NCBI RefSeq assembly: GCF_014207595.1 | Contig: NZ_JACHGY010000001.1 | Coordinates: 2,672,836 to 2,736,835, forward strand | Source of the DNA: Algisphaera agarilytica | GTDB lineage: Bacteria; Planctomycetota; Phycisphaerae; Phycisphaerales; Phycisphaeraceae | DNA: 64,000 bases | Reading direction: 5' to 3' | In this document: positions 56,376 to 60,067 of the stretch, piece after piece | How positions within the stretch are numbered: the stretch's first letter is position 1 | Layout: every line of letters begins with the position of its first letter | Made by a program: the position numbers and the translations under genes | Notes under the pieces: generated by a model | Seen by the model: the letters and a program-made list of their open reading frames with translations, nothing else | What the model was told of the DNA's origin: nothing | Database searches by the model: none

Positions 56376-57434
56376 CTACCACTGGCTGTTGCGTTGGCTC
56401 TTGGCGGCTTCCATCAGGCCTTGCAGATACATCAGGCCCAGCGAGCGGTCGAACAGGCCGTAGCCCGGTCGGCCTTCTTCGCCCCAGATCATCCGGCCGT
56501 GGTCCGGACGCAGCGGGCCGTCGTAGCCGGTGGCGACCAGCGCCTTCATCACCGCGTACATGTCCACGGTGCCGAGGCGGGAGAGGTGGGGGGCTTCGTG
56601 GAACTGCTTGTTGCCGGTGACCGCGACGTTGCGCATGTGCACAAAGTTGATGCGGTTACGCTTGCCGAACTTGCTGACGATCTGCGGGAGGTCGTTGCTG
56701 AGGCTCGCGCCCAGGGAGCCGGTGCAGACGGTGATGCCGTTGGACGGGCTGTCGACCACGCGGGTGATGCGTTCGTAGGCCGCCTCGCCCGTGACGATGC
56801 GCGGCAGGCCCAGGATCGACCACGGCGGATCGTCCGGGTGGATCGCCATCTTCACGCCCGCCTCTTCCGCGACGGGAACCACCCGCTCCAGGAAGTAGGT
56901 CAGGTTGTTCCACAGCGTGTCGGTGCCCAGCGCCCGGAACTGCTCGATGAGTTCTTTGAACCGCTCGGGCGTGTACACGGTCGACCAGCCGGGCAGGTTC
57001 GCGGCGCCCTCGGCATCAAGATCGATGTCGTTGAGCTCTTCGTAGCAGAAGCTCAGGGCGTGCGATCCGTCGGCGAGGGTGTGCTGGAGATTGGTCCGTG
57101 TCCAGTCGAACACGGGCATGAAGTTGTAGCAGAGCGTGGGGATGCCGGCCTTGCCGACATTGCGGATCGATTCGCAGTACGCATCGATGTAGTCGTCGCG
57201 TGTGGGCAGGCCGAGCTTGATGTCTTCGTGGACCGAGATCGACTCGATGACGTCGAGCTCGAGGCCTTCCTGGTTGATGATCTGACGCAGGGCCGCGATC
57301 TTCTCGAAGGGCCAAACGTCGCCGACCTCGACGTCGTAGATCGCGCTGACGATCCCGGTGACGCCGGGGATTTGACGGATTTTGCTCAGCGGCACGGGGT
57401 CATCCGTGCCGAACCATCGCATGGTCATTTTCAT
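56376..57434 (-). CDS. uxuA: Mannonate dehydratase
   Basis: A 352-residue enzyme dehydrating D-mannonate to 2-keto-3-deoxygluconate in glucuronate/alginate-type sugar acid breakdown. MKMTMRWFGTDDPVPLSKIR at the N-terminus; CYNFMPVFDWTRTNL, GVKMAIHPDDPPWSILGLPR, TVCTGSLGASLSND, RINFVHMRNV and GPLRPDHGRMIWGEE are standard family blocks with metal-binding His/Cys/Asp residues. Length normal. The start could also be the second Met (MTMRWFG). It stands alone, without uxaC or kdgK nearby. It fits catabolism of algal or plant uronic acids. Confidence 0.93.
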   Translation of the reverse strand: MKMTMRWFGTDDPVPLSKIRQIPGVTGIVSAIYDVEVGDVWPFEKIAALRQIINQEGLELDVIESISVHEDIKLGLPTRDDYIDAYCESIRNVGKAGIPTLCYNFMPVFDWTRTNLQHTLADGSHALSFCYEELNDIDLDAEGAANLPGWSTVYTPERFKELIEQFRALGTDTLWNNLTYFLERVVPVAEEAGVKMAIHPDDPPWSILGLPRIVTGEAAYERITRVVDSPSNGITVCTGSLGASLSNDLPQIVSKFGKRNRINFVHMRNVAVTGNKQFHEAPHLSRLGTVDMYAVMKALVATGYDGPLRPDHGRMIWGEEGRPGYGLFDRSLGLMYLQGLMEAAKSQRNSQW

Positions 57435-57707
57435 GGGTAAAACTCAGGGGGGATTCTGGCGGGTGAATTAAATATATAATCAAGGGGGTTGATGTCAAAT
57501 CGATCGCGGAAATCTTGCGTGAGCCGCCGAGGCGATCGCGGCGTGAGGTGGCCCGCGGGAACCCAAGCCATCGCTTGCCCGGCGAGAGGTTGTTACAAAA
57601 ACAAGTGGCGGAAGAGTTTCGGCCAGCCGATATCGGTGAAGGTGAACCTCAATCGTTCATCGATTTCGTCGTTGACATCCCCCACCCGCACGACTACATT
57701 TTCGCAC

Positions 57708-57785
57708 ATGCACCGCGACTCCCTTATTCTCTCGCTCCTCGGCAACAAGCTAAACGGCTTGCTGCTTATGGATTGGGCTGGATAA
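57708..57785 (+). CDS. leuL: Leucine-rich leader peptide of leuA
   Basis: A 25-codon frame ATG to TAA with eight Leu codons: MHRDSLILSLLGNKLNGLLL then MDWAG. Leu codons fall in two groups, 57723-57740 (CTT, CTC, CTC, CTC) and 57759-57767 (TTG, CTG, CTT), with CTA at 57750 between. It is 127 bp upstream of leuA and followed by an intrinsic terminator, the classic design of leucine attenuation: a ribosome stalling for lack of charged tRNA-Leu changes downstream folding. No clear ribosome-binding site is visible, which is the main weakness. A longer frame open upstream of this ATG is not needed. Confidence 0.78.
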   Translation: MHRDSLILSLLGNKLNGLLLMDWAG

Positions 57786-57848
57786 GGTTCGCTGCTGCTT
57801 AACGCACACACGCCAACCCTGTCCGGCCACGCCCGACAGGGTTTTTTT
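57770..57848 (+). promoter_or_regulatory. leuA attenuator: antiterminator and terminator
   Basis: Terminator stem AACCCTGTC (57815-57823) with GACAGGGTT (57835-57843) and a T-run to 57848. The competing antiterminator pairs GGATTGGGCTGG (57770-57781, last codons of the leader peptide) with CCAACCCTGTCC (57813-57824): ten of twelve positions pair, including one G-U. A ribosome at the leader stop codon would cover 57770-57781 and favour termination; one stalled at the earlier Leu codons would leave it free and favour leuA expression. Confidence 0.75.
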
Positions 57849-57911
57849 GTGTACTTATGAACCCCACGCCTCGAACCTCAACCCTTACGCCTCTTTAACC
57901 CCGAGCCTGCC

Positions 57912-59492
57912 ATGACCGACATCCGCATCTTCGACACGACCCTCCGTGATGGCGAGCAATCGCCCGGCGCTTCGCTGAACCACGCCGAGAAGCTCGAGAT
58001 CGCCCGCCAGCTCGAGGCCCTGGGCGTCGATGTCATCGAGGCCGGTTTCCCCATCACCAGCCAGGGCGACTTCGACGCGGTCAGCGCGATCGCCCACGAA
58101 CTGACCAAGCCGATCGTCTGCGGCCTGGCCCGCTGCGTCCCCCGCGACATCGATCGTGCGGGCGAGGCGGTGAAACACGCCAAGCAGGGCCGTATCCACG
58201 TCTTCTGCGCGACGAGCAAGATCCACCGCGAGCACAAGCTGAAAAAAGCCTTCGAGCAGATCATCGAGCTGTCGCAGCACAGCGTCGAGCAGGCCCGCGG
58301 CTACGTCGAGGATGTCGAGTTCTCCCCCGAGGACGGCAGCCGGACCGAGCTGAACTACCTGGTCGACATCACCGCCGCCGTGATCGAAGCGGGCGCGACG
58401 ACGATCAACATCCCCGACACCGTCGGCTACTCGGTCCCCGAAGAGTATGGCCACATCTTTGCCTACGTCCGCGAGCAGCTGCCGATCATCGACGAGAAGG
58501 GCATCTACCTGTCCAGCCACTGCCACAACGACCTGGGCTTGGCTGTCGCCAACTCGCTGAGCGCGATGCAGAACGGCGCCCGCCAGATCGAGTGCACCAT
58601 CAACGGCATCGGCGAGCGTGCGGGCAACGCCGCGCTCGAAGAGATCGTCATGGCCATGCGCACCCGCGCCGACTACTACGAGAAGTACAACACCAACATC
58701 GACATCAGCAAGCTCTACCCGACCTCACGCATGGTCTCGACCCTGACCGGCCTGCAGGTCCAGCGCAACAAGGCGTTGGTCGGGCAGAACGCGTTTGCTC
58801 ACGAGTCGGGCATCCACCAGGACGGCATGCTCAAGAACCGCAACACCTACGAGATCATGGACCCGCAGACCATCGGCGTCCCCGAGTCCAAGCTGGTGCT
58901 GGGCAAGCACTCGGGCCGACACGCGCTGGGCGACCGTATCAAACAGCTGGGCTACACCATCGACGACGACACGCTCAACCGCGTGTACGAGACGTTCAAA
59001 GCCTTGGCCGACAAGAAGAAAGACGTCTTTGATGAAGACATCGAAGCGATGATCGACACCACGCTGGAGAACGCGGCGCCCCTGTGGGAGCTGGTCAGCT
59101 TCCAGGTCAACAGCGGCTCGGGCGTTGCGCCCTCGGCCACAGTCACGATGCGTGACTCGTCCGGCGAAGAACGCGAAGACACCGAGACCGGCGACGGCCC
59201 GCTCGACGCGATCTTCTCGGCGGTGCAAAAACTCACCGGCGTTAAGGTCAAGCTCGAGGACTACAACACCCGTGCCGTCACCGGCGGCAAGGACGCCCAG
59301 GGCGAAGCCACCGTGCAGGTCAACCACCACGGCCGCAAGGTCCGCGGGCGCGGTGTCTCCACCGACGTCATCGAAGCCGCGGCCAATGCGTACGTCGCCG
59401 CGATCAACCGCATCAAAACCGCCGAGGCCCGCAAGGTCGCAGCGACGACGATGGGTGAAGACGACCCCGACGTGAAGGCGGAATCGCCATGA
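57912..59492 (+). CDS. leuA: 2-isopropylmalate synthase
   Basis: A 526-residue enzyme condensing acetyl-CoA with 2-ketoisovalerate, the first committed step of leucine synthesis. MTDIRIFDTTLRDGEQSPGA with the catalytic/metal Asp; GLARCVPRDIDRAGEAVKHA; metal ligands in LSSHCHNDLGLAVANSLSAM and ECTINGIGERAGNAALEEIV; AFAHESGIHQDGMLKNRNTY; the C-terminal regulatory LeuA-dimer domain (~400-500: WELVSFQVNSGSGVAPSATV) mediates leucine feedback. Length normal for the type I form. The upstream leader-attenuator adds transcriptional control. The stop overlaps the start of the acetyltransferase gene (ATGA). Confidence 0.96.
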   Translation: MTDIRIFDTTLRDGEQSPGASLNHAEKLEIARQLEALGVDVIEAGFPITSQGDFDAVSAIAHELTKPIVCGLARCVPRDIDRAGEAVKHAKQGRIHVFCATSKIHREHKLKKAFEQIIELSQHSVEQARGYVEDVEFSPEDGSRTELNYLVDITAAVIEAGATTINIPDTVGYSVPEEYGHIFAYVREQLPIIDEKGIYLSSHCHNDLGLAVANSLSAMQNGARQIECTINGIGERAGNAALEEIVMAMRTRADYYEKYNTNIDISKLYPTSRMVSTLTGLQVQRNKALVGQNAFAHESGIHQDGMLKNRNTYEIMDPQTIGVPESKLVLGKHSGRHALGDRIKQLGYTIDDDTLNRVYETFKALADKKKDVFDEDIEAMIDTTLENAAPLWELVSFQVNSGSGVAPSATVTMRDSSGEEREDTETGDGPLDAIFSAVQKLTGVKVKLEDYNTRAVTGGKDAQGEATVQVNHHGRKVRGRGVSTDVIEAAANAYVAAINRIKTAEARKVAATTMGEDDPDVKAESP

Positions 59493-60067
59493 GCCTGCTG
59501 ATTCCGGTTGACGACGAAGTGAGCCTGCGCCTGGTGCAGCCGCACCACGCCGAGGAGATTTACGCTGCCGCGATGACGAGCCAGGAATCGCTCTATCGGT
59601 GGATGCCGTGGTGTAAACCCGACTTGGTGGTCGATGACACGCGGAAGTGGATCGCGACGGTGCTCAAGGAGTTTGGCGAACGTAAGACGATGCCGTTGTC
59701 GGTTCTTGAGCATGGCGAGTTGGTCGGCGGATGTGGCTGGTCGTTCTGGGATGAGCACGACAACACCGACTGGAACCTCAGGTCACGCACCGCCGACATC
59801 GGCTATTGGCTGATCGACTCGGCACGCGGCCGGGGCATCATGACGCGCGCGGTCCGGGCGCTGGTGGACTACGGCTTCAAAGAGCAGGGCCTGCACCGCA
59901 TCACGATCCGAGCCGAGCCCGAGAATCATTCGAGCTGGGGTGTGCCCGAGCGTTTGGGCTTTACGCTCGAAGGAACGATGCGTCACGTGCTTGAGTGGAA
60001 CGGGCGCCGCATCGACCACCGCTGCTACGCCATGATCGCCGAGGATTGGCGAGACGCGCAGGGTTGA
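59489..60067 (+). CDS. GNAT-family acetyltransferase (RimJ/RimL-like)
   Basis: A 192-residue N-acetyltransferase: VSLRLVQPHHAEEIYAAAMT at the start, WMPWCKPD, DIGYWLIDSARGRGIMTRAV (acetyl-CoA pyrophosphate loop RGRGIMT), HRITIRAEPENHSSWGVPER, LGFTLEGTMRHVLEWNGRRI. RimL-type enzymes acetylate N-termini of ribosomal proteins or small molecules; the substrate here is unknown. The start overlaps the leuA stop by four bases, so translation is coupled and the gene falls under the leu attenuator. Confidence 0.88.
   Translation: MSLLIPVDDEVSLRLVQPHHAEEIYAAAMTSQESLYRWMPWCKPDLVVDDTRKWIATVLKEFGERKTMPLSVLEHGELVGGCGWSFWDEHDNTDWNLRSRTADIGYWLIDSARGRGIMTRAVRALVDYGFKEQGLHRITIRAEPENHSSWGVPERLGFTLEGTMRHVLEWNGRRIDHRCYAMIAEDWRDAQG

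Follow-up and report, generated by a model that had tools for sequence, protein, structure and literature searches.

The classical leu and trp attenuators of enterobacteria consist of a leader ORF enriched in codons for the end product of the pathway, a terminator and a mutually exclusive antiterminator, with the position of the ribosome serving as the signal. The leu leader of Escherichia coli contains rare Leu codons. A general account of classical attenuation is available (PMC4833913). Streptomyces lividans produces leader peptides from leaderless transcripts, LeuL1 before leuA and LeuL2 before leuS; a hairpin and uridines come downstream of LeuL2, and LeuL1, 15 residues long, is reported to have no typical Rho-independent terminator (PMC8079986). 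In the actinobacterial LEU element, leuA is preceded by an ORF in which Leu codons form a run; the element also has a pseudoknot, and its Leu codons pair with the Shine-Dalgarno box of leuA (PMC1262725). Upstream-ORF motifs associated with ilvB, ilvB-II among them, are described from Corynebacterium, Leptospira and others (PMC10272879). The authors of a 2010 paper on a Firmicutes case stated that they knew of no leader-peptide system demonstrated earlier outside Proteobacteria and Actinobacteria (PMC2965389).

The element analyzed here precedes leuA in a planctomycete. It is very probably a ribosome-mediated transcription attenuator for leucine in which the stop codon of the leader ORF lies inside the antiterminator. 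Its mechanism is classical: with the enterobacterial leu and trp attenuators it shares the end-product codons, the terminator, the exclusive antiterminator, the ribosome as signal and the use of rare Leu codons. The differences are the phylum, Planctomycetota, a probable leaderless start combined with a conserved leuA terminator, and a stop codon placed within strand 2 of the antiterminator. Like LeuL1 and LeuL2 of S. lividans (PMC8079986), the planctomycete leader would be a short Leu-rich peptide on a leaderless transcript; unlike LeuL1, it is accompanied by a conserved terminator before leuA, and the peptide has 22–31 residues in 42 of 43 leaders. The LEU element (PMC1262725) has a comparable upstream ORF with a Leu-codon run before leuA, whereas the planctomycete leader comes with a conserved terminator and a probable antiterminator. 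The ilvB-associated motifs likewise join an upstream ORF rich in branched-chain amino acid codons to a terminator stem; they belong to another gene and to other lineages, and the term 'planctomyc' does not occur in the text of the source (PMC10272879).

Among the titles and abstract openings of open-access papers, no description of attenuation or of a leader peptide in planctomycetes was found, in agreement with an earlier sequence-only reading of this DNA that knew of no described case in the group. One source counts short leader genes in Planctomycetes generally, with no mention of leuA in its text (PMC4833913).

The leuA leader and its conservation

The features of the locus are collected in Table 1, with positions given in the window, i.e. 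the whole 64-kb stretch of DNA that was analyzed. The promoter, TTGACA-17-TACATT at 57672–57700, is sigma-70-like with a score of 10/12 and was absent from the sequence-only reading, whose statements on the sequence (a 25-codon peptide with eight Leu, an intrinsic terminator, a position upstream of leuA) proved correct on re-reading. The eight Leu codons among the 25 start at 57723, 57729, 57735, 57738, 57750, 57759, 57762 and 57765 and comprise three CTC, two CTT and one each of CTA, TTG and CTG. The whole terminator spans 57815–57848, and its stem (57815–57827/57831–57843) forms 12 pairs in a hairpin of -18.9 kcal/mol; a simple consensus scanner called no terminator at the leuA leader, probably because of a mismatch in the stem. 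Over the whole window and on both strands, this ORF alone combines a promoter, a terminator and a stop-region duplex.

Table 1. Positions of the features of the probable leuA attenuator in the window and of the related isoleucine leaders elsewhere in the genome
Feature	Position	Strand	Basis
-35 box TTGACA	57672..57677	+	Promoter scan; TTGAC in 39/43 order-level leaders (the search itself required TTG)
-10 box TACATT, spacer 17 nt, 7 nt before ATG	57695..57700	+	Promoter scan
Leader ORF MHRDSLILSLLGNKLNGLLLMDWAG, 25 codons + TAA (ATG at 57708, TAA at 57783-57785)	57708..57785	+	Leu-rich ORF in 43/46 order-level upstreams
Strand 2 of antiterminator, includes stop codon 57783-57785	57776..57789	+	Cognate pairing, covariation, pairing peak centred on stop codon
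Strand 3, partner of strand 2; 57815-57827 is the terminator 5' arm	57815..57828	+	Pairing, covariation, folding
Strand 4, terminator 3' arm, sequence resembles strand 2	57831..57843	+	Terminator scoring, covariation, folding
T tract of intrinsic terminator	57842..57848	+	Read from sequence
leuA, 2-isopropylmalate synthase, presumed regulated gene	57912..59492	+	NF002086 (768 bits, cut-off 532) and TIGR00973, above cut-off
Ile-codon leaders before cimA and ileS, stop-in-antiterminator design	Own genome, outside window: C1:3150295-3150380 (L331, L411) and C1:2089056-2089139 (L386, L410)		

A gene for a GNAT-like acetyltransferase (59489–60067; best NCBIfam match below cut-off) starts within the leuA stop through an ATGA overlap; it may be co-transcribed with leuA and under the same attenuator. 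On the minus strand, a strong promoter-like site (57471–57498, 11/12) would serve the divergent mannonate dehydratase gene at 56376–57434.

LeuA orthologues were searched in three overlapping genome sets: the order (151 genomes, 48 close matches), the class (297 genomes, 151 matches) and the phylum (294 genomes, 141 matches). Upstream DNA, taken from the order-level places and from part of the class- and phylum-level ones, gave 187 loci, 185 of them with a recognizable leuA start (L220 and L226 lacked the start motif) and 178 distinct after merging of seven duplicates; one order-level place (G109) was omitted at a contig end, and L109 and L187 were excluded for too little upstream sequence. 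The order-level set consists of the 46 members of families f1 and f6, own genome included, whose upstream sequence extends for 300 nt or more. No LeuA reached the cut-off in two genomes of the window's own genus, so that the comparison begins with less close relatives. Leaders were picked partly by their Leu density, and the relatives are not independent.

A Leu-rich ORF behind a sigma-70-like promoter and followed by a terminator was found in 43 of the 46 order-level upstreams. Under a stricter test, which required five Leu within ten codons and a terminator of -10 kcal/mol or lower, 39 of 46 passed, against 0 of 460 shuffles, and a Leu-dense ORF behind a promoter occurred in 0/460 and 0/528 dinucleotide-shuffled upstreams. 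When the leader test without the terminator was applied to eleven other amino acids, each gave at most 1 hit in 176 upstreams. All 43 order leaders have a terminator between the leader ORF and the gene, with 94.6% of the stem cells paired. A clear leader was not found in three order-level upstreams (L117, L120 and L128), the first of which holds a weaker candidate. In one family member (G035; L128, L373) neither a leuA nor a cimA leader was found, as if control had been lost.

Over all 176 upstreams of sufficient length, a leader was present in 83 and a leader with terminator in 77. Outside the order its occurrence is patchy (8/14 in f9, 5/5 in f17, 8/18 in f44, 3/17 in f11), and none was found in f56 (0/5), f58 (0/4) or f78 (0/3). 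Eight named planctomycete records include four with a leader, namely Phycisphaerae bacterium 4_bin.8 (L003), Phycisphaerales RYN_430 (L004), strain ZRK32 (L005) and a Pirellulales MAG (L007), and four without a convincing one (L006, L015, L017 and L029).

A probable antiterminator centred on the stop codon

The antiterminator proposed by the sequence-only reading, 57770–57781/57813–57824, forms ten of twelve pairs, one of them G-U, and a longer helix, 57776–57789/57815–57828, forms 13. Both were evaluated in an alignment of the order leaders (A1: MAFFT, pairing disregarded; 43 rows, 42 distinct). The proposed helix is 40.7% paired there, with a covariation of 0.091 versus 0.090 in shuffles (228/500 as high), and was discarded as a conserved antiterminator since its pairing and covariation are at chance level. 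The helix around the stop codon is 83.8% paired, with a covariation of 0.182 versus 0.103 (0/500) and 22 double-change cells versus 6.8 (0/500); the number of its pairs with any double change, five, was reached by 61/500 shuffles and is not clearly above control. Terminator covariation amounts to 0.289 versus 0.192 in shuffles (0/500), and its count of further pair types, reached by 112/500, is not above control. RNAalifold applied to A1 returned the terminator alone.

In most relatives, the sequence around the leader stop (GCCGGAUAGGG or a variant) is reverse-complementary to the terminator 5' arm (CCCUGUCCGGC or a variant). Across the 43 sequences, duplexes between the stop region and the terminator arm have a mean energy of -20.3 kcal/mol in cognate combinations and of -16.1 kcal/mol in non-cognate ones, and with one sequence per genus (31), 0/2000 permutations reached the observed mean in each of three draws; shuffling strand 2 gave -11.4 kcal/mol. 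Sliding a segment along the leader revealed a single pairing peak, at the stop codon, the values falling to about -8 to -9 kcal/mol at least 12 nt away. The pairing reaches -15 kcal/mol or stronger in 35 of the 43 order leaders and is weaker in eight (L090, L100, L102, L106, L114, L115, L116 and L126). For 38 leaders outside the order the peak again falls on the stop codon (mean -14.8, versus -4 to -10 at 15 nt or more), with 19 of them at -15 or stronger; the design thus extends past the order, though not in every case.

As far as sequence comparison goes, conservation in the order covers the Leu-rich frame, the position of the promoter, the terminator and the pairing of strands 2 and 3, and compensating changes accompany both the terminator and that pairing. 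Disappearance of the Leu frame and of such changes in relatives, named by the sequence-only reading as the observation that would count against it, was sought within the order and not found, and its main claim of a leucine attenuator set by ribosome position is well supported by the comparison.

In the proposed mechanism, RNA polymerase would start on the leader ATG or a few bases from it, and a ribosome would load on the (almost) leaderless mRNA. With plentiful Leu-tRNA, folding suggests that the ribosome would reach the stop codon and mask strand 2, strand 3 would pair with strand 4 and the resulting terminator would leave leuA untranscribed. With scarce Leu-tRNA, the ribosome would stall on the Leu codons, and strand 2, stop codon included, would pair with strand 3 and block the terminator. 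The last Leu codon starts 11 nt 5' of strand 2.

Folding with a ribosome assumed a 12-nt footprint, from which it follows that the antiterminator is zero with the ribosome at the stop codon. In that position, the terminator is favoured in 43 of 43 order leaders (0.97 in the window). A stall on the last Leu codon leaving strand 2 free lets 37 of 43 leaders form the antiterminator before strand 4 has been transcribed; in the window, a stall at the last Leu codon gives an antiterminator value of 0.91 and a terminator value of 0.01. The mean antiterminator value for a stall exactly at the last Leu codon is 0.57. In the finished RNA after a stall, the means over all are 0.42 for the terminator and 0.51 for the antiterminator. 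The terminator therefore competes strongly once strand 4 exists, which implies that the switch would have to act during synthesis of the RNA and that kinetics would have to matter in many relatives.

The choice of codons in the leaders fits a role as sensor. The rare codon CUA accounts for 18.9% of the Leu codons of the 43 leaders versus 1.4% in 29 leuA genes, and the less common CUU 28.5% versus 7.7%; UUA, also rare, shows no enrichment in the leaders (0.7% versus 2.5%).

Isoleucine leaders before cimA and ileS

A covariance model built from the leuA leaders alone (R1) recovered the leuA element of its own genome with an E value of 4e-12, by construction, along with a weaker match before ileS (E 0.0035), and in the class-level search it matched before cimA in relatives. 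In the own genome, cimA (603 bits, cut-off 450) is preceded by MSFAAPQSEITISIIEDNLR and ileS by MANALRPDPRIIIGIPNLR; in both leaders the stop codon lies in CCGGUAGGG and the terminator arm reads CCCUGCC.

A cimA leader with Ile codons occurs in 11 of the 15 cimA-bearing genomes of f1 and f6; a twelfth (L365) has two Ile codons only, and the leader is absent in two genomes of genus g4 and in G035. None was found at L379 and L380 of f11, nor at the three loci with a recognized start among 30 further class-level cimA loci. For ileS, an Ile-rich leader was present in 8 of 28 scanned family upstreams, own genome included, the stop codon falling within the conserved motif in seven of the eight, and no clear one was seen in the other 20, among them a genome of the same genus (L389).

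Cognate pairing in the 29 Ile leaders averages -18.5 versus -16.3 when swapped (0/2000 permutations). Before counting, L294 was dropped, having no scored terminator. Alignment A2 holds 24 of the 29 (L365, L374, L378, L383 and L387 omitted). At one of its pairs, 13 of the 24 have C-G and 7 have G-C; double-change pairs and further pair types in the Ile helix are not above control (344 and 492 of 500 shuffles). A model of the Ile elements that includes the own cimA and ileS leaders (R2) found no third place of comparable score in the own genome, the next being a partial match at E 2e-4. On visual inspection, the R1 matches at 650832, 2135445 and 1931121 of the own genome did not make convincing leaders, and fourteen stretches around weak R1 matches, that at 650832 included, contained no further convincing one.

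The 43 leuA leaders contain 27.6% Leu and 4.5% Ile, and the 24 cimA and ileS leaders 24.8% Ile and 4.2% Leu, both sets having been chosen partly by that density. That leucine codons stand at the leucine gene and isoleucine codons at the isoleucine genes, under a shared architecture, argues most strongly for the peptides being sensors.

Alternative readings and wider meaning

Any factor that masks strand 2 could in principle drive the switch between strands 2, 3 and 4, be it a protein or a T-box-like or riboswitch element, the ORF being then incidental. We regard this as highly improbable, given an ORF that is Leu-rich at leuA and Ile-rich at cimA and ileS under a shared architecture, a stop codon that sits within strand 2, and the lack of any T-box or riboswitch match in Rfam: at gathering score the window and 12 relatives returned a single tRNA (in L172) and no leader, T-box or riboswitch family, and the window searched at E values up to 10 gave three implausible matches. 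An independently functioning small hydrophobic protein as the product of the ORF, with the terminator as the end of its gene, is scarcely credible. The locus does resemble a tiny gene, its short Leu-rich peptide being flanked by a promoter and a terminator; however, apart from Leu and their final residues the peptides diverge greatly between genera, they contain little Val or Phe, CUA and CUU are enriched, and the stop region covaries with the terminator arm.

The attenuator may also be true with a leader that has a 5' UTR and a ribosome-binding site, transcription starting further upstream. This form exists in the phylum, the ATG lying 15–38 nt past the -10 box in 19 of 44 leaders outside the order, and leaderlessness is thus not general in Planctomycetota. 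For the order we hold it unlikely: the gap is 6–12 nt in 42 of 43 leaders (in a search that accepted 4–40 nt and mildly favoured short gaps), only 3 of 43 have a Shine-Dalgarno-like sequence ahead of the leader ATG, and 57300–58300 contains one promoter-like site only on the plus strand. Because transcription usually begins about seven bases past the -10 box, such short gaps would put the 5' end of the mRNA on the ATG or a few bases from it, and the leader mRNA in the order is probably leaderless, judged from promoter spacing. A promoter-to-ATG pattern search for leaderless-type starts found 14 places in the own genome versus 3 in a reversed control. The leuA leader is the sole Leu-rich short ORF among the 14; seven others are open for at least 320 codons (one of these, L282, may be spurious) and one for 130. 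By eye, the long ORFs include LacI-like and ArsR-like regulators.

Turning from the single locus to the phylum, we consider it fairly likely that Planctomycetota possess widespread branched-chain attenuators, with Leu leaders at leuA and Ile leaders at cimA and ileS, built around the stop codon as antiterminator core and leaderless in the studied order, and that their origin may be independent of that of the proteobacterial and actinobacterial ones. Such a conserved amino-acid-specific set would extend the mechanism to another phylum. Planctomycete nucleoid organization has long been debated. Since attenuation needs a ribosome close behind RNA polymerase, transcription–translation coupling becomes directly testable in planctomycetes, and the attenuator, if true, would amount to a genetic demonstration of it in their cells; it would also predict efficient leaderless translation in the group. 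The leaders further suggest ready reporters for the charging of Leu-tRNA and Ile-tRNA.

Nine distant class members (L214–L218 and L222–L225) carry putative leuA leaders, several without a clear terminator. Six of the nine have TTGCAA as -35 box, and the peptides mostly end in LLLRR or LLLRL; a different variant of the leader may exist in these genomes.
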